From contig CALSTP010000001.1 of the NCBI GenBank assembly GCA_943789305.1, positions 844,178-908,177 on the forward strand: a DNA stretch of 64,000 bases, written 5' to 3'. Source of the stretch: an uncultured Flavobacteriaceae bacterium. GTDB lineage: Bacteria > Bacteroidota > Bacteroidia > Flavobacteriales > Flavobacteriaceae. Positions within the stretch are counted from its first letter, which is position 1, and each line of letters begins with the position of its first letter. Under the pieces are notes generated by a model, which saw nothing but the letters and a program-made list of their open reading frames with translations, had not been told where the DNA came from and searched no databases. A program made the position numbers and the translations under genes. Below are positions 44,864 through 55,181 of the stretch, in pieces.

Positions 44864-46144
44864 CTATTTGATTTGCTCCATTTTCTTACGAATTTCTTTA
44901 AGCCCCAAGTTGCCTATACTACCGATATGTGTGTGTTCTACAGACCGATTGGGTTGATAGTTTCCTTTTTCAATAGCTTCTCCAAGTTCACGATAGGCAT
45001 CTCTAAAAGGTTTTCCAGATTGTACTTCAGCATTTAGTATATCAACGCTAAATAGGTAATCGTATTTTTTTTGATCGGTAATATTATAACTAATCTCGAT
45101 GTTAGGAAGACTAAAAAGAAGCATCTCTAAACATGCTTTGATTTCTTGAATCCCATCAATGATTGGTGCTTTAGCTAATTGTAATTCTCTATGATAACCA
45201 CTAGGCAAATTCGTTGTTAACAACGATAGTTGATTGGGTAAACCTTGCAATGCATTACATTTTCCACGGATTAATTCAAAAACATCCGGATTCTTTTTAT
45301 GAGGCATAATACTTGAGCCTGTAGTTAGGTCATCTGGGAAGGAAATAAAATTCAAATCTTGGCTCATATATAAACAGATGTCCATAGAAAATTTTGCTAA
45401 AGTACTACCTATCATACTCAAAGCTATTGCTGATGTTTTTTCTACTCTCCCACGACTCATTTGTGCAGCAACTGCATTGTATTTTAGGGTGCTGAAATTG
45501 AGTAATTCGGTGGTAAATTCTCGATCAATTGGAAAAGAACTTCCGAAGCCTGCAGCACTTCCTAATGGATTTTGATCTGCTAAAGAATATGCGGTGTTTA
45601 GAAATTGCACATCATCAATTAGATTTTCGGCATAGGCTGAAAACCACATCCCAAAAGAGGAGGGCATTGCAACTTGAAGATGAGTATATCCAGGCAGTAA
45701 AGCTTTTTGATGTTGTTCAGCTAATTGCATTAAAAGATCAAAAAGTTCAATTACAGTTTTTTTAATTATACTGATTTCTTCTTTAAGATAGAGATGAGTG
45801 GCAACCAAAACTTGATCGTTTCGGGATCGGGCTGTATGAATTTTTTTACCTAAATCTCCCAACTCTTCAGTTAATACATGTTCAATTTTGGAATGCATAT
45901 CTTCGAATTCATCTTCGATGATAAATGTTCCAGCTTCTGCTTTTTGCTTGAGTTTATCAAGCATTTCCGAAAGTTGATCTGCTTCTTTCTGTTCGAGGAG
46001 TCCAATTTTTGCAAGCATTTGAGCATGAGCACTTGATGCAATGCAATCGTATGCTGCTAATGCTAAATCATAACTTCGATCATTACCTACGGTAAAATGA
46101 TCTACTTTTTGATGGGCAGCCTTTCCTTTTTGCCAAAGTTTCAT
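44864..46144 (-). CDS. argH: Argininosuccinate lyase
   Basis: The protein has 426 residues and the fumarase/aspartase superfamily signature GSSIMPHKKNPDVFE near residue 280; HTARSRNDQV near 110 and LLPGYTHLQVAMPSS are substrate-binding blocks specific to ArgH. It splits argininosuccinate into arginine and fumarate, the last step of arginine synthesis. It is the last gene of the operon; its start overlaps the deacetylase stop by four bases. Confidence 0.95.
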   Translation of the reverse strand: MKLWQKGKAAHQKVDHFTVGNDRSYDLALAAYDCIASSAHAQMLAKIGLLEQKEADQLSEMLDKLKQKAEAGTFIIEDEFEDMHSKIEHVLTEELGDLGKKIHTARSRNDQVLVATHLYLKEEISIIKKTVIELFDLLMQLAEQHQKALLPGYTHLQVAMPSSFGMWFSAYAENLIDDVQFLNTAYSLADQNPLGSAAGFGSSFPIDREFTTELLNFSTLKYNAVAAQMSRGRVEKTSAIALSMIGSTLAKFSMDICLYMSQDLNFISFPDDLTTGSSIMPHKKNPDVFELIRGKCNALQGLPNQLSLLTTNLPSGYHRELQLAKAPIIDGIQEIKACLEMLLFSLPNIEISYNITDQKKYDYLFSVDILNAEVQSGKPFRDAYRELGEAIEKGNYQPNRSVEHTHIGSIGNLGLKEIRKKMEQIK

Positions 46145-47199
46145 AAGATTTCGTTTAAAAGTTTAATGTACAATGCGATTCCTTCTTCTATTTCATGCAC
46201 ATGAATAAATTCATTTGCTGTGTGCGATCGAGTAGAGTCTCCTGGACCTAATTTTAAAGATGGACAACTTAGTTTTGCTTGATCTGAAAGTGTGGGTGAT
46301 CCATAGGGTTTTCTTCCCAGTTCAATTCCTGCAGTAACCAGTTTATGAGTTAGTGGTATGGAGGAAGAATTTAAATCAGTCGAACGAGGAGTTAATTTAC
46401 AAGGTGCTTCTTTTTGGAGTAACTCAATAATTTCAGCATTAGAATAACGGTCATTAACCCGAACATCAATGACTAAGTTAACTCCTGAAGGGACTACATT
46501 GTGTTGCTTTCCTGCATTTACTTGCGTTACGGTCATCTTAACAGGCCCAAGTACTTCAGATTCTTTTTTAAAAGAGAATTCTTTGAACCAATTCAAAACT
46601 TTTGGAAGTTTCATGATTGGGTTCTCTTCATTGGGATGGGCTGCGTGACTTGCAGTTCCTTCAATTAGTCCATCAAAAACTACCAACCCTTTTTCGGCAA
46701 TGGCCAATTGCATTAGTGTAGGTTCTCCAACGATAGCAACATCAATTGGAGGAAGTGTTTTTAGAAGAGAATTTAAACCCAATGGACCCGAACTTTCTTC
46801 CTCTGCTGTTGCCGTAATTATCAGATTATATTTTGGATTGGGATGATTGTAGTAAAAAGTAAACAAAGCCAATAAAGAAACCAAAGCCCCTCCAGCATCA
46901 TTACTTCCTAATCCATAAAGTTTTCCATCCTCGATATGAGGATCAAAAGGATTTTTAGTATATGCACCGTTTGGTTTCACGGTATCGTGGTGAGAATTTA
47001 AAAGTAAATTAGGTTTCTTTTTATCATAAAAATGATTGAAGGCATATACATTGTTATTTTCTCTAAAAAAAGGAATTCCATGGTCCATAAACCATTGTTC
47101 TAAACGAGCAGCAGTTTCATTTTCTTCACTTGAAAAAGACTCTATGGCAATTAAATCTTTCAATAGTTCTAGTGCTTCTTTGGTAAGTTCTTTTTGCAT
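46141..47199 (-). CDS. argE: M20 family N-acyl-ornithine/citrulline deacylase
   Basis: The product has 352 residues and M20 metallopeptidase features: LLNSHHDTVKPNG (metal His and Asp), GSNDAGGALVS, the catalytic-Glu block TATAEEESSGPLGL, and ADVGEP-like IVGEPT. In this operon, where the carbamoyltransferase acts on acylated ornithine, the enzyme is expected to remove the acyl group from N-acetyl- or N-succinyl-citrulline rather than from ornithine. It lies one base after argB. Confidence 0.9.
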   Translation of the reverse strand: MQKELTKEALELLKDLIAIESFSSEENETAARLEQWFMDHGIPFFRENNNVYAFNHFYDKKKPNLLLNSHHDTVKPNGAYTKNPFDPHIEDGKLYGLGSNDAGGALVSLLALFTFYYNHPNPKYNLIITATAEEESSGPLGLNSLLKTLPPIDVAIVGEPTLMQLAIAEKGLVVFDGLIEGTASHAAHPNEENPIMKLPKVLNWFKEFSFKKESEVLGPVKMTVTQVNAGKQHNVVPSGVNLVIDVRVNDRYSNAEIIELLQKEAPCKLTPRSTDLNSSSIPLTHKLVTAGIELGRKPYGSPTLSDQAKLSCPSLKLGPGDSTRSHTANEFIHVHEIEEGIALYIKLLNEIL

Positions 47200-47200
47200 A

Positions 47201-47974
47201 TTACAGGGTAATAGTGGTATGTTTTATTATTTCTTTAATCATTTCAGGTTTTCCTATATGAACTTTTGAAACCCCATTTTGAAGTGCATCAAATGCATTT
47301 TTCATCTTTGGAAGCATTCCTTCGGTAATTATATGTTCTTCTTTCAATTCTTTGTAAATCCGAGAATCAATGTGCTCAATTAATGAATTCTGATCTTTTA
47401 ATGATTTCATAACTCCACTCTGTTCAAAACAATAATACAAATTTACTTCGAAATCTTTTCCCAAAGCAACCGCAATACTTGAGGCAATTGTATCTGCGTT
47501 AGTATTTAAAATTTGCCCATTGGCATCATGGGTCAAGGCACAGCAAATGGGACTCAATGCATTATTTAGGAGAAGTTTAAAAAAAGAAGTATTTACATAA
47601 GTAATATCACCAACCCACCCGAAATCTGTATTTTCAACAGGTCGTTTTATGGCCTGAATTGCATTTGCGTCGGCACCAGACAATCCAATCGCATTACAAT
47701 TATATCCCTGTAAGGAAGCAACGATATTTTTATTGACTTGACCTCCGTAAATTCCTGTAATTAACTCAAGAGTTTCTGTATTGGTAATTCTTCTTCCATC
47801 TTTCATTTCAACTGGTATACCCAGCCGTTCTGCCCATTGACTTGCTTTTTTTCCACCTCCATGAACCAGTATTTTTGGACCGGTAATTGATGCAAAATCC
47901 TTAAGAAAATTATCTAAATCCATAGGATTTTCAATAATATTTCCTCCTACTTTTATAATGCTAACTTTGGTCAT
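47201..47974 (-). CDS. argB: N-acetylglutamate kinase
   Basis: The protein has 257 residues and amino-acid kinase motifs: VSIIKVGGNII at the start, ILVHGGGKKASQWAERLG, and GLSGADANAI. It phosphorylates the acylated glutamate in the second step of arginine synthesis. It overlaps the carbamoyltransferase gene by 14 bases. I do not see the long N-terminal helix that marks arginine-inhibited hexameric forms, so feedback by arginine may be absent here, in line with transcript-level control (inference). Confidence 0.93.
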   Translation of the reverse strand: MTKVSIIKVGGNIIENPMDLDNFLKDFASITGPKILVHGGGKKASQWAERLGIPVEMKDGRRITNTETLELITGIYGGQVNKNIVASLQGYNCNAIGLSGADANAIQAIKRPVENTDFGWVGDITYVNTSFFKLLLNNALSPICCALTHDANGQILNTNADTIASSIAVALGKDFEVNLYYCFEQSGVMKSLKDQNSLIEHIDSRIYKELKEEHIITEGMLPKMKNAFDALQNGVSKVHIGKPEMIKEIIKHTTITL

Positions 47975-48914
47975 TGTCGAGAAGGGTTTTTAGTACTGCT
48001 TGTGCGGCAAAAGTTCTGTTGTTGGCTTGATCAATAACCAATGAATTTGGATGATCAAGTACTCCATCTGCAACTACAATATTTCTTCGTACCGGAAGAC
48101 AATGCATAAACTTTCCGCTATTGGTTTGTTTCATTTTATCTTCAGTAAGGGTCCATTCGTTATCGGTTCTCAAAATTGAGCCATAACTGGAGTATGAACA
48201 CCAGTTTTTTGCATAGACAAAATCAGCATCTTTTAAAGCTTCTTCTTGGTTGTGAATTACAGGAACATCTTTAGTAATTCTTGGATCCAACTCATATCCT
48301 TCAGGTTGTGCAATTATAAAATCTGCTTCTCTAAACTCCATCATTTTTGTGAAAGAATTTGCTACAGCATGAGGAAGTGCCTTGGGATGAGGTGCCCAGG
48401 TAAGCACTACTTTGGGTTTGTGTTGAGTAGGATACTCATCAAGGGTAATTGCATCAGCTAATGCTTGAAGCGGATGTCCAACTGCACTCTCCATATTAAT
48501 AACAGGTATGCTTGCATATTTTGCAAAGCTTTTTAGAACAATTTCTGCTTCATCTCGAACTTTATCTGTTAGAGAAGCAAAAGCTCGAATTGCTACCATA
48601 TCACAATATTGTGATACTACTGCAGCTGCTTCTCGAATGTGTTCTGATCGAATACCTCTCATTTCTGTACCATCCTCAAATTCCAATGCCCAAGCTTCGT
48701 TTGAAAAATTCATAATCATGGTATTGAACCCTAAATTTTGACCTGCTTTTTGAGTACTTAAACGGGTTCTCAAACTGGGATTGAAAAATAAGAGACCCAA
48801 AGTTTTTTGTTTTGCATGTTTTTTAAAAGCAAAAGGATCTTTTTTTAACGATTTGGCTAAAGACAATGCTTCGTCAAAATCAGGGAGATCATTCAAAGAA
48901 ATAAAGTTTTTCAT
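47961..48914 (-). CDS. argF: N-acetyl/succinylornithine carbamoyltransferase
   Basis: From the ATG at 48914 the protein has 317 residues. The carbamoyl-phosphate site LLFFNPSLRTRLSTQKA and the C-terminal MHCLPVRRN are clear. The sequence follows the Bacteroidota/Xanthomonas type that acts on N-acylated ornithine, not free ornithine (WALEFEDGTEMRGIRSEHIREA in the loop where ordinary OTCases differ). As I recall, Bacteroides uses succinylornithine with a Pro in this loop and Xanthomonas acetylornithine with a Glu; here a Ser (in GIRSEH) seems to take that place, so the acyl group cannot be told. A frame starting at 48935 is open but would overlap argD. Confidence 0.88.
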   Translation of the reverse strand: MKNFISLNDLPDFDEALSLAKSLKKDPFAFKKHAKQKTLGLLFFNPSLRTRLSTQKAGQNLGFNTMIMNFSNEAWALEFEDGTEMRGIRSEHIREAAAVVSQYCDMVAIRAFASLTDKVRDEAEIVLKSFAKYASIPVINMESAVGHPLQALADAITLDEYPTQHKPKVVLTWAPHPKALPHAVANSFTKMMEFREADFIIAQPEGYELDPRITKDVPVIHNQEEALKDADFVYAKNWCSYSSYGSILRTDNEWTLTEDKMKQTNSGKFMHCLPVRRNIVVADGVLDHPNSLVIDQANNRTFAAQAVLKTLLDNDQS

Positions 48915-48915
48915 A

Positions 48916-50058
48916 CTACTGATTTTTGTGTTCATTTAGAGCTTCTTTTAATCCTTTAAAAAAAAGATCAATATGTGTTTTTTGAACAGTTAATGGAGGA
49001 AGAATTCTCAAAAGTTTTTTATTACTACTTCCTCCAGTAAATATTTTTTTATCATAAATTAAAGTTTTGCGAAGAGCTCCAACTTCAAAATCAAATTCAA
49101 TCCCCAGCATTAGCCCTCTTCCTTTAATCTTTTTCACTCCATTAATTTTTTGAGCTTGTTCTTTGAAGAAAACACCCATTTTATAAGCATGGTTTTGTAA
49201 CCTTTCATCTTCCAAAACCCTTAGGACTGCTAGAGATGCCGAACAGGCTAAATGGTTTCCTCCAAAAGTTGTTCCTAACATTCCGTACTTAGCTTTGATA
49301 CTCGGGTGAACTAGAATTCCACCAATAGGAAATCCATTTCCCATACCTTTTGCCATGGTTACAATTTGTGGTTCAATTTTGTATTTTTGATAAGCAAAAA
49401 AGGTTCCTGTTCTTCCAAAGCCAGATTGGACCTCATCTGCAATCAGACACACCTTATTTTCTTTACATAGACGATCCATGTCGTAGATAAATTCCTCTGA
49501 AGGTTCGTCTAAACCTCCAACACCTTGAATCGCCTCAAAGATAACCGCGCAAACATCTTCTTTTTTAAGTTCTTTCTCTAAGGATGCAGAATCGTTAAAC
49601 TCCAAAAAGGTGACTTCTTGTTGTTTGTTTAAAGGGGCATTGATGTTAGGATTATCGGTTACAGCTAATGCTGCGCTTGTTCTACCATGAAAGGAGTTTT
49701 TAAATGCAATAACCCTTTTTTTATTTGTTTGAAATGAAGCTAATTTTAAACCGTTTTCAATTGCTTCAGCACCTGAACTGCACAAAAATAATTGATAATC
49801 TGAACAACAAGATTGATGACCAATCGCAGCTGCCAATTCGTGTTGCAATGGATTATGAATCGCATTGGAATAAAAACCAATTTGATCCAATTGATTTTTG
49901 AGTTTCTTTACATAATGCGGATGCCCATGCCCAATTGAAATTACTGCATGCCCTCCATAGAGGTCTAAATATTCTGTTCCTTTTTCGTCATAAACATAAA
50001 CATCATCAGCCCTTACTGGAGTTACATCATACAAAGGATAAACATCAAATAATTTCAT
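48916..50058 (-). CDS. argD: Acylornithine aminotransferase
   Basis: The product has 380 residues and belongs to class III aminotransferases: SSGAEAIENGLKLAS, FHGRTSAALAVT, ADEVQSGFGRTGTFFAY and the PLP lysine in TMAKGMGNGFPIG. It makes N-acyl-ornithine from the semialdehyde with glutamate as donor. It starts three bases after proC and ends one base before argF. Confidence 0.94.
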   Translation of the reverse strand: MKLFDVYPLYDVTPVRADDVYVYDEKGTEYLDLYGGHAVISIGHGHPHYVKKLKNQLDQIGFYSNAIHNPLQHELAAAIGHQSCCSDYQLFLCSSGAEAIENGLKLASFQTNKKRVIAFKNSFHGRTSAALAVTDNPNINAPLNKQQEVTFLEFNDSASLEKELKKEDVCAVIFEAIQGVGGLDEPSEEFIYDMDRLCKENKVCLIADEVQSGFGRTGTFFAYQKYKIEPQIVTMAKGMGNGFPIGGILVHPSIKAKYGMLGTTFGGNHLACSASLAVLRVLEDERLQNHAYKMGVFFKEQAQKINGVKKIKGRGLMLGIEFDFEVGALRKTLIYDKKIFTGGSSNKKLLRILPPLTVQKTHIDLFFKGLKEALNEHKNQ

Positions 50059-50061
50059 AAG

Positions 50062-50856
50062 TTATTGATTTGAGATGTCGTTTATTTTATTGAAAGAAGC
50101 CGCTAAACCTTGAATTAATGAAGAACTTAATCCTTGATGTTCCATTTCATTGAGTCCTGTAATGGTACATCCTCTGGGGGTGGTGACCTTATCGATCTCC
50201 TCTTCAGGGTGGGATTTATTCTCCATCAAAAGGGTGGCTGCCCCCAAAGCTGTGAATACAGACATATCCATCGCTTCTTTAGCTTCAAACCCCAATTGAA
50301 CTCCACCTTGGGTCATTGCTCGAATCAAACGCATCCAAAATGCAATTCCACTAGCACAAATTACAGTTGCGGCTTGCATATGTTCTTCTGCAATAGTTAT
50401 TGATGTTCCCAATCCATTAAAAATTGCACTGGCAATATCAATCCGTTTTTCACCAACTTTGTTTGAGCAAATACAAGTCATTGATTTTCGGACTGATATT
50501 GCTGTATTTGGCATGCTTCTTATAATAGGGAATTGAGTTCCAATGATGGATTCAATACGTTCAATTTTAAAGCCTGTGATTACCGAAATCAAAACATGTT
50601 TATCGGTTAATACATTTTTAATAGACTTTAAAATTTCTTCAAATTGTCCCGGTTGAACAGCAAAAATTATGATATCAGATTTGTGTATTGCTTCCAAATT
50701 ATCTGAGGTTACATTAACGTTTTTATGCGATTCCCAATCGGAAAGAGAAGTTACATCTCTTTTGGTTAAATAAAGGGTTGTTATCGTATTGTTGATGACC
50801 AACCCCTGAGCGATGCTTAAACCGAGATTTCCAGTTCCTATGATTGCTATTTTCAT
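50062..50856 (-). CDS. proC: Pyrroline-5-carboxylate reductase
   Basis: The protein has 264 residues with an N-terminal GTGNLG Rossmann loop (residues 7-12), the ProC blocks IIFAVQPGQFEEIL and FPIIRSMPNTAISV, and the C-terminal VTTPRGCTITGLNEMEHQG. It makes proline from pyrroline-5-carboxylate. Its place inside the arginine operon links proline to arginine/ornithine metabolism, a typical arrangement in flavobacteria. Confidence 0.94.
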   Translation of the reverse strand: MKIAIIGTGNLGLSIAQGLVINNTITTLYLTKRDVTSLSDWESHKNVNVTSDNLEAIHKSDIIIFAVQPGQFEEILKSIKNVLTDKHVLISVITGFKIERIESIIGTQFPIIRSMPNTAISVRKSMTCICSNKVGEKRIDIASAIFNGLGTSITIAEEHMQAATVICASGIAFWMRLIRAMTQGGVQLGFEAKEAMDMSVFTALGAATLLMENKSHPEEEIDKVTTPRGCTITGLNEMEHQGLSSSLIQGLAASFNKINDISNQ

Positions 50857-50867
50857 GTTTTATTTTT

Positions 50868-51842
50868 TTAAAAAATATTTGTTTTCAATTCAAGTCCTAA
50901 GCGCTCTTCCCAACCCATAATTAAGTTCAAATTTTGTAAGGCTTGACCCGAGGCGCCTTTAATCAAGTTGTCAATTACAGAGGTAATCAAAAGAATACCT
51001 TGGTGAAGATGCAGATGAATAAAACAATTATTTGAATTGATTACTTGTTTCAAAGCGATTTCTTGGGTCGAAATATGAGTGAAGGGATGCTCATTAAAAT
51101 AATTTGTATAAAGACTTAAGGCATCTTCAATGCTCCCATCAAAGGAAGTGTATGCTGTTGCAAAAATACCACGCGTGAAGTCTCCACGTTGCGGTAAAAA
51201 AATCACTTCAGTATCGTCTCCTTGTACTGTGTTTAATGATTCACGAATTTCACCCAAATGTTGATGTGTAAAGGGTTTGTACCATGACAAGTTGTTATTT
51301 CTCCAAGTAAAATGTGAGGTATATGAAAGCCCAACTCCCGCACCAGTACTTCCTGTAGTTGCATTTATGTGTACAGTGTTTTTTAGTTTTTTTGAATCAG
51401 CCAAGGGCAAAAGAGCCAACTGAATTGCGGTAGCAAAACAACCCGGATTGGCTATGGATTTAGCATTTTTGATTTCATTTTTTTGAAGTTCGGGTAAACC
51501 ATAAACGAAGGTCCTATCCCGAAAATTTCTATCTGCACTCAATCTAAAATCATTACTCAGATCAATAATAACTGTTTCTTTTGAAAACTCATGTTGTTCA
51601 ATAAACAGGGATGAGTTCCCATGCCCCAAACAAAGAAAAACAATATCTACATCTAAATTAATTTGATCTGTAAAGTTCAAAGTTGTTGTTCCTAATAAAT
51701 CTTGATGGGTGTCACTCAGAGGAGTTTTGGGCCGGGTTGTGCTGTAAACAAACTCCAAAACTAAATTTGGGTGTTGAAGAACCAATCTTAGAAGTTCACC
51801 TCCCGTGTAACCAGATCCACCTATTATTCCTACTGTTTTCAT
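50868..51842 (-). CDS. argC: N-acetyl-gamma-glutamyl-phosphate reductase
   Basis: The protein has 324 residues. GIIGGSGYTGGELLRLVLQHPN is the opening, with the NADP loop at 6-13; the catalytic Cys is in SIANPGCFATAIQ near residue 135; the substrate His lies in THQHLGEI. It reduces the acylglutamyl phosphate to the semialdehyde. It overlaps the argG stop by four bases (ATGA). Confidence 0.95.
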   Translation of the reverse strand: MKTVGIIGGSGYTGGELLRLVLQHPNLVLEFVYSTTRPKTPLSDTHQDLLGTTTLNFTDQINLDVDIVFLCLGHGNSSLFIEQHEFSKETVIIDLSNDFRLSADRNFRDRTFVYGLPELQKNEIKNAKSIANPGCFATAIQLALLPLADSKKLKNTVHINATTGSTGAGVGLSYTSHFTWRNNNLSWYKPFTHQHLGEIRESLNTVQGDDTEVIFLPQRGDFTRGIFATAYTSFDGSIEDALSLYTNYFNEHPFTHISTQEIALKQVINSNNCFIHLHLHQGILLITSVIDNLIKGASGQALQNLNLIMGWEERLGLELKTNIF

Positions 51843-53029
51843 TTTGTTTCTTCTTTATTAATACTTTTGTAAATGGTATGGGCATTTGCAGTGATTTTGA
51901 TGAATCCTTTTGCATCTGCTGCAGTCCAACCTTTACTCATTTCACCATAACTTCCAAAGGATGCATTCATCAAATCATTCGGTGATTCGATACCCTCTAA
52001 TTCAAAACGATAGGGGTGAAGTGTTATAAAAACTTCCCCGTTAACTGTTTTTTGACTGTTTTCCAAAAAAGCCTCAATGTCCCTCATCACTGGATCCAAA
52101 TAATTTCCTTCATGTAATTGCATACCATAAAAACTCCCTAATTGTTCTTTTTGAAATTGTTGCCATTTGGAGAGAGTGTGTTTCTCTAAGAGGTGATGTG
52201 CTTTAATGATGATTAGAGGAGCCGCTGCCTCAAAACCAACCCTGCCTTTGATTCCAATAATGGTATCGCCAACATGAATATCCCTTCCAATTGCGTAAGT
52301 TTTAGCCAAATCTTGAAGTTCTTGAATAAGCATTACAGCATCAGCCTTTTTGCCATTGAGTTCGATGAGCTCTCCGCCTTCAAACTTCAATCTGATCTTT
52401 GTAGGATTTGTTTCCAATAATGGACTGGGGTAAGCCTCGTTTGGTAATGCTTTTCGAGAAGTTAAGGTTTCACTTCCTCCAACACTGGTTCCCCATAGGC
52501 CTTGGTTAATTGAATACTGGGCTTTTTCCCAAGACATTTCAATTCCTTGATTCTTTAAATACTCAATTTCATCCTCACGAGAAAGTTGTTGATCTCTTAT
52601 AGGAGTAATGATTTCAATGGTTGGAGCCAATACCTGAAAAATCAGATCAAATCGTACTTGATCGTTCCCGGCACCTGTACTTCCGTGAGCAATAAATTTA
52701 GCATCAGTTTTTTTGGCATACTCAATGATTTCAACTGCTTGAACAATTCGCTCGGCACTCACAGAAAGCGGATAACTGTTGTTTTTTAGAACATTCCCGA
52801 AGACTAAGTATTTTACAATTTTCTGGTAAAATGATTCAAGAGCATTTATTGACTTGTAGCTATGAGCACCCATAAGCATTGCTTTGGATTCTTGTTCTTC
52901 AATTTCTTTTGGGATAAAACCACCAGTGTTCACACTGACGGCATGAACCTCGTAGCCCTCTTGAGAAAGGGTTTTAAGGCAGTAAGAAGTATCCAGACCA
53001 CCACTGTAAGCTAGCACAAGTTTTTTCAT
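51839..53029 (-). CDS. argG: Argininosuccinate synthase
   Basis: The protein has 396 residues and the PP-loop AYSGGLDTSYCL at residues 8-19, then HGSTGAGNDQVRFD and the late block IHVGDTIIGIKGRVGFEAAAP. It joins citrulline and aspartate with ATP. It follows the GNAT gene with a four-base overlap and precedes argC with another. Confidence 0.95.
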   Translation of the reverse strand: MKKLVLAYSGGLDTSYCLKTLSQEGYEVHAVSVNTGGFIPKEIEEQESKAMLMGAHSYKSINALESFYQKIVKYLVFGNVLKNNSYPLSVSAERIVQAVEIIEYAKKTDAKFIAHGSTGAGNDQVRFDLIFQVLAPTIEIITPIRDQQLSREDEIEYLKNQGIEMSWEKAQYSINQGLWGTSVGGSETLTSRKALPNEAYPSPLLETNPTKIRLKFEGGELIELNGKKADAVMLIQELQDLAKTYAIGRDIHVGDTIIGIKGRVGFEAAAPLIIIKAHHLLEKHTLSKWQQFQKEQLGSFYGMQLHEGNYLDPVMRDIEAFLENSQKTVNGEVFITLHPYRFELEGIESPNDLMNASFGSYGEMSKGWTAADAKGFIKITANAHTIYKSINKEETK

Positions 53030-53613
53030 TTTGATTTTTTTTTGAAAAGACCACTCAGAAAAGCAGTAGTCTTAGATTTTGTTTTGTTTTTATCATTGGG
53101 ATCGTGTAGCATTCCTGTACACAAGCACATGCTACGATCGGTTCGGGTAAGAACGTCATAGTTTTTACAAGTCTGACATCCTTTCCAAAATTCTGGATCG
53201 TCAGTCAATTCAGAAAAATGTACGGGTTTGTAACCGAGTTCGTAGTTAATTTTCATCACAGCTTGGCCTGTAGTGATTCCAAAAATTTTAGCTCCAGGGT
53301 ATTTTTCAAGGGACAATTCAAAAACTTTTTTCTTAATAGCTTTTGCTAGTCCTTTACCCCTGTATTGAGGTGAAACGATCAAACCCGAATGGGCAACATA
53401 CTTTCCGTGTTGCCATACTTCGATGTAGCAAAACCCAGCAAACTGATCACCATCAAGTGCAATTACAGCATTACCATTTTGTAATTTTTTGATAATGTAT
53501 TCTGGAGTCCTTCGTGCAATTCCTGTTCCACGATCTTTAGCTGACTCGTCTATGCATTGGCTAATGGTCTTTGCAAACTGAATATGTGAAGCGTTACCAA
53601 TAACGATTTTCAT
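53026..53613 (-). CDS. GNAT N-acetyltransferase, first gene of the arginine operon, with Cys cluster
   Basis: The protein has 195 residues. The acetyl-CoA loop VSPQYRGKGLAKAIKKK (near 85-101) marks it as a GNAT enzyme. After the fold comes a Cys-rich tail: CQTC and then SMCLC about 14 residues on (four Cys in two pairs), followed by a basic C-terminus. As first gene of the arg operon and in the absence of argJ or a classical argA here, it is the best candidate for the N-acetylglutamate synthase step (inference). The Cys pairs could bind a metal or sense redox state. Confidence 0.85.
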   Translation of the reverse strand: MKIVIGNASHIQFAKTISQCIDESAKDRGTGIARRTPEYIIKKLQNGNAVIALDGDQFAGFCYIEVWQHGKYVAHSGLIVSPQYRGKGLAKAIKKKVFELSLEKYPGAKIFGITTGQAVMKINYELGYKPVHFSELTDDPEFWKGCQTCKNYDVLTRTDRSMCLCTGMLHDPNDKNKTKSKTTAFLSGLFKKKSK

Positions 53614-53660: not shown

Positions 53661-53682
53661 GAATCCGGACACACCGAGATTC
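53661..53682 (-). promoter_or_regulatory. Hairpin in the arg leader, possible attenuator
   Basis: On the minus strand arms GAATC-CGG and CCG-GATTC pair (8 base pairs with one bulged T after GAATC) around the loop TGTGT. It lies 17 bases after the leader-peptide stop and 48 bases before the GNAT start, and is followed by ATTTTCAAT. The T tract is short, so termination strength is uncertain. Confidence 0.45.
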
Positions 53683-53698
53683 TGAAAAAAATACACCC

Positions 53699-53782
53699 CT
53701 AGGGGCGACGACGGAATACACACGGGAAATTTCTGTTTGTTGAAACAGCAGGATTGTTTGACTGTGTAAAATTTTCTTTCAT
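53699..53782 (-). CDS. Candidate arginine-operon leader peptide (27 residues)
   Basis: On the minus strand an ATG at 53782 opens 27 codons that begin MKENFTQSNN and end NFPCVFRRRP before TAG. Residues 24-26 are three consecutive Arg codons (CGT CGT CGC), and a fourth Arg (AGA) is at residue 17. The frame starts about ten bases after a good promoter (53792-53823) and stands in the 5' leader of the arginine operon, just before a hairpin. The Arg codons and stop sit in the unusually GC-rich segment that contains the palindrome CCCCTAGGGG (53696-53705). This is the layout of a ribosome-stalling attenuator: with little charged tRNA-Arg the ribosome would wait at codons 24-26. The frame is too short to be certain without comparison. 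Confidence 0.55.
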   Translation of the reverse strand: MKENFTQSNNPAVSTNRNFPCVFRRRP

Positions 53783-53791
53783 AATAATCCA

Positions 53792-53823
53792 CAAAGTTGA
53801 TGCATTCTAATTTAAATACCAAA
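53792..53823 (-). promoter_or_regulatory. Promoter of the arginine operon
   Basis: On the minus strand TTTG (53823-53820) is followed after exactly 20 bases by CAACTTTG (53799-53792). The spacing fits the Bacteroidota consensus TTTG-N19/20-TAnnTTTG, with one mismatch (C for the first T). It puts the start of the transcript about 170 bases before the GNAT gene, leaving room for the leader peptide and hairpin. Confidence 0.55.
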
Positions 53824-53876: not shown

Positions 53877-55181
53877 ATGTATTTTTGTGGTGTGATAGAT
53901 CGTTTTAAATTAAATATTAATAAAAAATTTAAAGAATTCAGAACCCAAAAATTACTGTTAGCAATCAGTGGGGGACTGGATAGCAGGGTATTACTTCACT
54001 TATTGAGCCAATGTAAACTGAGTTTTGGAGTAGCTCATTGCAATTTTGGATTGCGTGCAAAAGAAAGCGATTCGGATGCCAAATTTGTAGAAGAAATTTG
54101 CACAAAAAATCAAATACCTTTTGAAATCAAAAAATTTGAAACCAAAGCTTATTCACAAAAACATAAAATTTCCACACAAATGGCTGCCCGAGAATTGCGG
54201 TATTCCTGGTTTGAAGAACTCCTAGAAATAAAGGATTACGATAAAATTGTAACAGCCCATCACTTAGACGATCAATTGGAAACTTTTATGATCAATACAG
54301 GTCGCGGATCTGGTTTATCTGGATTAACTGGAATTCCCGAAAACACTTCAAGAGTTGCACGCCCGATGCTGCCCTTTACTCGAAAAGAAATTTTGGAATA
54401 TGCCCAAGCAGAAAATCTAGAGTGGAGAGAGGACGCCTCAAATTCTTCAGATGTATATCTGAGAAATGCACTTCGAAATCAAGTAATTTCCAAATGGAAA
54501 ACCTATGCTCCTCACTTGATGTCTAATTTTGAGGACACTCTGAGCTACATCAAACAAAGTCAGTATGCTCTGGATTTTATTGTGAATCAATGGAAGGAAC
54601 AACACTTCATTCATAAAGGGGCTCATATTCACATTGATTTGAAAGACTTTAAAAAATTAACCCCAGTCGAATACTATCTCAATGCTTTATTTTCTCCCTA
54701 TGGCTTTCACACAAGAGATTTAAAAGATTTGTTGAATGCTCAAAGCGGGAAGTACTTGAAATCTAGTTCTCACCGCCTGTTGGTCAATCGAGGTGAATGG
54801 ATTTTGGAAGAAAACAGTTTTACCCAGATTTCTGAGGTCCTTTGGGATATAAAAAAGCCCCTTCTACAGCCCATAAAACTACATGTGGATTCGACTTTTG
54901 AAAATAATAATTCTTGTGTATCTCTTGATAAATCTCGTTTAATTTATCCTCTAAAGTTGCGTAAATTTGAAGAAGGTGATTATTTTTATCCTACAGGAAT
55001 GCAAGGAAAGAAAAAACTAAGTAAGTACTTTAAAGATGAAAAGTATTCTCAAATTGATAAAGAAAATCAATGGTTATTGTGTTCCGGGCATACCATTGTT
55101 TGGGTAATTAATAGAAGAGCTGATCGCAGATTTACCATTGAACCAACAAACAGCAATTGTTTAATACTGAAAACAAAATGA
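53877..55181 (+). CDS. tilS: tRNA(Ile)-lysidine synthase
   Basis: The protein has 434 residues with the PP-loop LLAISGGLDSRVL (residues 27-39), HCNFGLRAKESD, TAHHLDDQLETFMINTGRGSGLSGL and the TilS C-terminal domain ending FYPTGMQGKKKLSKYFKDEK. It modifies C34 of tRNA-Ile(CAU) with lysine. A TATTTTTG box overlaps the first codons (53880-53887), so the true start might be the in-frame GTG at 53892, which gives VIDRFKLN as start; the ATG at 53877 remains possible. It is divergent from the arginine operon and overlaps dsbD by four bases. Confidence 0.92.
   Translation: MYFCGVIDRFKLNINKKFKEFRTQKLLLAISGGLDSRVLLHLLSQCKLSFGVAHCNFGLRAKESDSDAKFVEEICTKNQIPFEIKKFETKAYSQKHKISTQMAARELRYSWFEELLEIKDYDKIVTAHHLDDQLETFMINTGRGSGLSGLTGIPENTSRVARPMLPFTRKEILEYAQAENLEWREDASNSSDVYLRNALRNQVISKWKTYAPHLMSNFEDTLSYIKQSQYALDFIVNQWKEQHFIHKGAHIHIDLKDFKKLTPVEYYLNALFSPYGFHTRDLKDLLNAQSGKYLKSSSHRLLVNRGEWILEENSFTQISEVLWDIKKPLLQPIKLHVDSTFENNNSCVSLDKSRLIYPLKLRKFEEGDYFYPTGMQGKKKLSKYFKDEKYSQIDKENQWLLCSGHTIVWVINRRADRRFTIEPTNSNCLILKTK

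Follow-up and report, generated by a model that had tools for sequence, protein, structure and literature searches.

A widely conserved arginine leader-peptide element upstream of the arginine operon in Flavobacteriaceae, probably a variant of leader-peptide attenuation

The region upstream of the nine-gene arginine operon in an uncultured Flavobacteriaceae bacterium is a real, widely conserved arginine leader-peptide element. Judged from the sequences of relatives, arginine sensing by the leader appears well supported, and we give a probability of roughly 65% to reading the element as a leader-peptide attenuator responsive to charged tRNA-Arg(acg), with a stalled ribosome blocking a hairpin, H1, at the end of the leader frame. 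The sequences themselves show the conserved frame, its Arg codons, the choice among those codons, the hairpins and the location of the element, and a search for the ArgR domain found none.

The window, the whole stretch of DNA that we analysed, is 64,000 nucleotides long. The leader region lies in it between a tilS-like gene on the plus strand and the arginine operon on the minus strand, and along the minus strand the sequence gives, in this order, a promoter-like pair, a 27-codon frame, H1 with a T-rich tract, a second hairpin (H2) and the first gene, which begins at 53613. The promoter elements and the T-rich tract were read from the sequence, the frame and its Arg codons from the sequence and its relatives, and the operon genes were named from Pfam matches. 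The features are the following.

53877-55181, plus strand: tilS-like gene, the neighbour on the other side of the leader region
53820-53823, minus strand: upstream promoter element TTTG, 20 nt before the -7 box
53792-53799, minus strand: -7 box CAACTTTG, with CA here in place of the consensus TA
53699-53782, minus strand: leader ORF of 27 codons, MKENFTQSNNPAVSTNRNFPCVFRRRP
53733-53748, minus strand: hairpin H0, CTGTTT-CAAC-AAACAG, inside the leader frame, a possible RNA polymerase pause hairpin
53705-53713, minus strand: Arg codons CGT CGT CGC, the proposed sensor
53694-53707, minus strand: hairpin H1, CGCCC-CTAG-GGGTG, overlapping the last Arg codon, the Pro codon and the stop
53685-53693, minus strand: T-rich tract after H1, TATTTTTTT
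53661-53682, minus strand: hairpin H2, GAATC-T-CGG-TGTGT-CCG-GATTC, with a conserved GG-TGNGY-CC top and a varying lower stem
53026-53613, minus strand: GNAT acetyltransferase, first gene of the operon
51839-53029, minus strand: argG, argininosuccinate synthase
50868-51842, minus strand: argC
50062-50856, minus strand: proC, pyrroline-5-carboxylate reductase
48916-50058, minus strand: argD, class III aminotransferase
47961-48935, minus strand: argF-type carbamoyltransferase
47201-47974, minus strand: argB, amino acid kinase
46141-47199, minus strand: argE-type M20 peptidase
44864-46144, minus strand: argH, lyase

An earlier sequence-only reading of this DNA had described a nine-gene arginine operon preceded by a promoter-like pair, a 27-codon frame ending Arg-Arg-Arg-Pro and a hairpin at 53682-53661. 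The Pfam matches fit the order GNAT-argG-argC-proC-argD-argF-argB-argE-argH, and the other elements can all be read directly in the sequence; the GC contrast that it reported is seen on the downstream side, with 40% GC in the frame against 13% between H2 and the first gene. All nine genes were found by tblastn in 10 of 12 relatives (11 kb each), while proC was not found in L226 and argH was not found in the fetched stretch of L223. The GNAT protein carries a C-terminal Cys motif (CQTC...MCLCTG); our guess is that it might catalyse the opening step of the pathway.

The leader ATG (53782-53780) lies 9 nt after the TTTG of the -7 box, for which the accessible text of PMC9723704 reports the consensus TAnnTTTG, and the frame ends with CGT CGT CGC CCC TAG, the stop occupying 53701-53699. 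To compare this region among relatives we fetched 110 loci via GNAT homologues, 99 of them with distinct upstream regions once 11 exact duplicates had been dropped. Including later loci, 123 were anchored on the H1-H2 pattern, 122 with a frame, of which 120 were distinct; eight of the 32 later loci (L124-L126 and L133-L137) had no match to the anchor pattern and were left out of the frame counts. A TTTG and an in-frame start are at most 16 nt apart at 94 of the 122 loci, the distance being 7 nt in 52. The leader usually ends in RRRP-stop or in RRP plus three residues and a stop, the exceptions being L123, L051 and L017, whose peptide ends RRLVRV; RRP is kept in L029 and L048 despite a shifted hairpin register.

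The codons of the frame were compared in 28 independent pairs, leaving out the last two codons. We counted 70 synonymous against 181 non-synonymous changes, and since this synonymous share of 28% is near the random expectation of 24.5%, the body of the peptide appears nearly free to drift. Changes were more frequent at third codon positions (146, vs 106 and 109 at the others; p 0.016), and at Arg positions 13 of the 101 compared codons had changed to or from another amino acid. With 181 of the 251 codon changes non-synonymous, a conserved peptide of the arrest type was not seen, only the Arg-Pro end being largely kept. Such drift is what would be expected if the codons, not the peptide, were sensed, and the frame with its conserved in-frame Arg codons is putatively translated.

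A short frame with clustered Arg codons was, in the main, kept in relatives, as the earlier reading had asked. We found at least two Arg codons in 118 of the 120 distinct frames, the others being L047, which is cut by a contig end, and L051, which has one Arg. In these 118 leaders the Arg codons before the last one, counted over the last 14 codons (n = 339), vary at the third position, again as proposed, and do so almost entirely between CGT (191) and CGC (135), with 13 others (AGA 4, AGG 4, CGA 3, CGG 2), whereas the last Arg codon is CGC in 115 leaders and CGT in three. The share of CGT and CGC before the last codon, 326 of 339, compares with 162 of 546 Arg codons in the ORFs of the window, a background that comes from one genome while the leaders come from many species. 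As an internal control, leader codons for Ala, Val, Thr, Ser and Leu stayed near background, A-ending ones included; those for Pro and Gly depart from it, which fits the arms of H1. Running ARAGORN at the places of 34 tRNA matches, we found three tRNA-Arg, with anticodons acg, tcg and tct, in an assembly that is 90% complete and could therefore lack a further tRNA. We take wobble reading to be CGU/CGC by acg, CGA/CGG by tcg and AGA/AGG by tct. The preference for CGT and CGC together with these three tRNA-Arg is why the leader seems to read a single isoacceptor, tRNA-Arg(acg).

We then considered the hairpins. The one named by the earlier reading, H2, is present, but it is H1, which had been missed, and not H2 that overlaps the Arg codons. 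In a consensus scan, H1 was one of three terminator-like sites in 1501 bases, shuffled sequences giving 0.9 (sd 1.1). Of 117 loci, 101 have arms of the CGCCC/GGGTG type as their best hairpin and 50 have a GTAA loop; the stop codon lies within the H1 loop or at its edge in 76 of the 117 and further downstream in 40. The pairs of H1 hardly vary, the outermost being missing in 21 of 53 sequences, so the case for H1 rests on conservation, not on covariation. Intrinsic termination is favoured by the T-rich spacer, a tract following H1 in 69 of 117 loci where shuffled spacers give 32% and positions far upstream 20%, and by the clear T run in the window; against it stand the short stem (4-6 pairs in 115 of 117 loci, mean -6.5 kcal/mol), the 48 loci that have no tract, and composition, by which 37% of random positions in the stretch immediately ahead of GNAT come up to the same T threshold.

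H2 looks unlike a terminator, a T-rich tract following it in only 12 of 99 loci and missing in 87. As a structure it is conserved, in agreement with what had been proposed: its four lower pairs are paired in 98.6% of cases and all four show changes on both sides. The pattern GG[TC]GNG[TC]CC fits H2 in 89 of 99 loci and a looser form fits the other 10; as the anchor pattern requires the GG and the CC, the choice of loci accounts for part of their constancy, with 0 of 99 loci lost for lack of them. The variable loop base of GGTGNG is A in 59, T in 24 and C in 16 of the 99 loci. We discarded H2 as a coding frame (MEIGES/MEYGEP), where the variable base would be a middle codon letter and the window has no ATG at that place, and as a ribosome-binding-like sequence, in which only GGUG is nearly constant.

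Covariation was scored on 53 of the 99 located regions, retained after thinning at 85% identity. For H1 plus H2, none of 500 shuffles came up to the observed covariation score, to the observed share of paired cells or to the observed number of cells with changes on both sides; two stricter measures were reached more often, pairs changed on both sides in 46 and further pair types in 243 of 500. When the pairing was slid by 1-3 columns it scored lower on all five measures. Among 13 folded leaders, H1 formed in 11 without a stalled-ribosome mask and in none with it, a loss that is partly by construction. H2 was in the minimum-energy fold of the same seven leaders with and without the mask; at the GNAT start the mask changed pairing little, by 0.14 at most. 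In a crude test of long-range pairing (60 of 85 loci used, values down to -4.2) we found no mutually exclusive antiterminator, since no region pair of 45 exceeded t = 2.22 except one, which holds H0 and overlaps itself. H0 scored above codon-shuffled copies in 116 leaders (mean 11.25 vs 8.90, standard error ~0.33), 26% of which were in the top 5% of their own shuffles.

To map the distribution of the element we built a covariance model of H1 plus H2, R1, from the 53 thinned sequences. It matched 187 of 299 Flavobacteriaceae genomes, and the GNAT protein matched 197; both were present in 184, GNAT only in 13, R1 only in three and neither in 99. The distance to GNAT was measured in the 50 highest-listed genomes with coordinates in both tables, and in every one R1 stands on the strand of GNAT, 40-92 nt ahead of it. 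We inspected two of the three R1-only genomes, and both have R1, then a first gene unmatched by the GNAT query, then argG. Zobellia species (L081, L101, L106) are among the carriers of the element. The genome of the window has one clear match (E 7e-12), the next best having E 0.9. We also searched 196 genomes sampled from the order and 247 sampled from the phylum, family members being among both; outside the family this gave four weak matches (L127-L130, E 0.004-0.009), which we counted as chance because tblastn found no arginine-operon gene within their 3 kb. Against Rfam, the window gave only a tRNA at gathering scores, and six loci gave none at E up to 1. The recurrence of frame, Arg codons, H1 and H2 across the family is more than chance would give.

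The ArgR C-terminal domain (PF02863) was found neither in the genome of the window nor in any of the 299 family genomes, while the same search was positive in eight of 14 control genomes, a Bacteroides included. Where the sequence-only reading left control "in place of or beside" ArgR, the first option is thus favoured, and a ribosome waiting for arginine probably does ArgR's usual job where the leader is present.

Some loci negative for R1 have frames of their own. L190, L205 and L207 keep an Arg-containing frame upstream; the Arg-run frames of L190 and L205, upstream of GNAT, end in CFRRRRCRE and FRRRLLA and are possibly diverged versions of the element. Apparent remnants are seen in L133, L135 and L137, and others show none. 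In L132, L149 (~131 nt upstream of H1) and L134 there is a second, distal promoter-like box with an Arg-rich frame (MKTLKYIRCSTPGLSARNRRSF and relatives), which L134 keeps though its genome has no R1 match. In the genus labelled g127, presumably Flavobacterium, 13 of the 16 loci next to argG (L191-L203) share a different conserved leader. Its frame lies roughly 250-330 nt ahead of GNAT, one example being MNKISLHITSLSRTNSPITSPEVRTLSL; it carries the motif TSPEVR, its Arg codons are CGG, and the leader includes a hairpin ACTTC-TCCC-GAAGT, whose arms read ACCTC/GAGGT in L203. This leader is not present in L206, L208 and L209.

Taken as an attenuator, the element would work as follows. Transcription would start a few nucleotides before the leader ATG, so that the leading ribosome would enter at the RNA's 5' end, and H0 may pause RNA polymerase until this ribosome has caught up. 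A shortage of charged tRNA-Arg(acg) would stall the ribosome on the terminal Arg codons. A ribosome with a codon in its A site covers ~13 nt downstream; the stalled footprint would thus cover the 5' arm of H1, H1 could not form and polymerase would continue into the operon. With arginine plentiful, the ribosome would reach the stop in or just after H1 and leave, H1 would form and expression would fall, most simply because H1 terminates or halts polymerase in the T-rich spacer. Four parts of this scheme are inferred, namely stalling, where transcription starts, which way control runs, and termination at H1. Direct blocking of H1 is the simplest switch, the stalled ribosome itself perhaps replacing an antiterminator, and since no mutually exclusive antiterminator was found we file the element as a variant of the trp/his type. 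In Flavobacteriaceae the device would stand in for ArgR.

The His and Trp leader peptides of the same genome count in favour of the attenuator reading. Against it count H2, which has no place in the model, the 13 GNAT-bearing genomes without R1, the 13 of 101 Arg codons changed to or from another amino acid, and the small change of pairing at the GNAT start under the mask. A bolder version, possible but doubtful, would make the element a new attenuator architecture, with a start near the 5' end, tuned to tRNA-Arg(acg), with H1 blocked by the ribosome and with H2, not a U-tract terminator, carrying the decision via some partner, RNA polymerase or a protein, and replacing ArgR across much of Flavobacteriaceae. 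It might also sense proline, as the operon carries proC and the Arg-Pro end is common.

The closest rival keeps the Arg-codon sensing leader and replaces the intrinsic terminator by Rho-dependent termination or RNA decay, an explanation that we find unlikely though deserving of real weight. In its Rho version the frame and the G-poor RNA after H2 would be Rho loading sites shielded by the stalled ribosome, and H2 a pause or processing site. The leaders are rich in C and poor in G (A 27, C 28, G 16, T 30%, with 5% G from H2 to GNAT) and the T tract is absent after H2 in 87 of 99 and after H1 in 48 of 117 loci, but T is enriched after H1 in the 69 others, and an A/T-rich, G-poor composition may be usual for 5' regions across the phylum. 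Salmonella speF offers a precedent of consecutive Arg codons used with Rho and RNase G, according to the accessible text of PMC6386406. The 37% T control and the two unsupportive shuffle measures slightly lowered the weight that we assign to the attenuator and raised that of this explanation.

The remaining explanations are much less probable. An arrest peptide, sensing arginine via the ribosome tunnel and stalling at the stop when arginine is high, would resemble fungal AAP and SpeFL, which are arginine-sensing arrest peptides. It would explain why Arg-Pro next to the stop is the rule, L017 differing, and why RRP survives the shifted register of L029 and L048; yet the remainder of the peptide is not conserved, the stop position varies by about three codons between types and a choice of CGY over AGA/CGA would be irrelevant to a peptide sensor, which makes it very improbable. 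Marginally less credible still is an arginine-binding or protein-binding RNA made of H1 and H2, with the frame incidental. H2 keeps its GG, CC and TGNGY loop (89 of 99) and its lower stem varies with pairing kept, as such an RNA might, but H2 is small, Rfam gave no match in the searches above, and the Arg codons extend upstream of the structured part, in frame and isoacceptor-specific. Finally, a DNA-level operator for a repressor, with H1 as its palindrome, could account for the CCCCTAGGGG symmetry in the window and its close relatives; we consider it scarcely tenable with an ArgR C-terminal domain in 0 of 299 genomes and with 50 of 117 loci having their symmetry broken by a GTAA loop, the way an RNA hairpin would.

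The attenuator reading suggests a way for a large bacterial family to regulate arginine synthesis in the absence of ArgR. It also provides a natural example in which codon choice follows a single tRNA isoacceptor, in a defined, testable RNA of ~170 nt.

The his, trp and leu attenuators of proteobacteria have a leader frame with clustered codons for the regulated amino acid, hairpins and a biosynthetic operon downstream, and in all three respects the arginine element is alike. It differs from them in its amino acid, arginine, in a hairpin that overlaps the sensor codons and the stop, in that no alternative antiterminator was found, in the want of a clear terminator in many relatives, in the extra conserved H2 and in a start codon very near the promoter. 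In the E. coli pyrBI attenuator the translating ribosome directly prevents a hairpin in or next to the leader frame; this direct interference would be shared, but pyrBI senses UTP via polymerase speed and not tRNA charging.

In the literature that we searched, mostly open and without supplements, no arginine leader-peptide attenuator of Bacteroidota was found, and the supplement of PMC9723704 may list one. Arg-codon leaders as such are already known, as far as the accessible texts go, from Salmonella speF (PMC6386406) and Staphylococcus aureus rbfL (PMC13009471). In speF, consecutive Arg codons of the leader frame orf34 sense arginine, but they control ornithine decarboxylase instead of arginine biosynthesis, and rare or frequent Arg codons work alike, unlike the CGY choice of the arginine leader. 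The rbfL leader peptide senses arginine shortage with AGA/AGG codons and represses rbf translation by covering its ribosome site. Within the same family, the accessible part of PMC9723704 describes strong signs that leader-peptide attenuation occurs ahead of amino-acid operons in Flavobacterium psychrophilum, arginine not being among those named there. The Bacteroid-trp RNA (RF01692), a motif named in a table row of PMC2864571, is from the same phylum and, unlike the arginine element, is represented in Rfam.

The nearest comparison comes from the same genome, which carries a His leader peptide (MQQILIHNHHHFTNSNEL; L184 1230-1350) whose ATG lies 7 nt after TTTG, with a hairpin and nine T before hisG, and a Trp leader peptide (MKFFISTIAWWNE; L185 1335-1445) whose ATG lies 5 nt after TTTG, with a hairpin and six T before trpE. 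Their frames, His-rich and Trp-Trp, likewise start close to the TTTG box, and they end in long hairpins followed by these T runs, whereas the arginine leader has no clear terminator in many relatives. It is because one organism has such textbook-like his and trp leaders that the arginine leader, with its H1 and H2, can be seen to depart from them as what appears to be a variant of leader-peptide attenuation, and this contrast makes H2 a concrete target.
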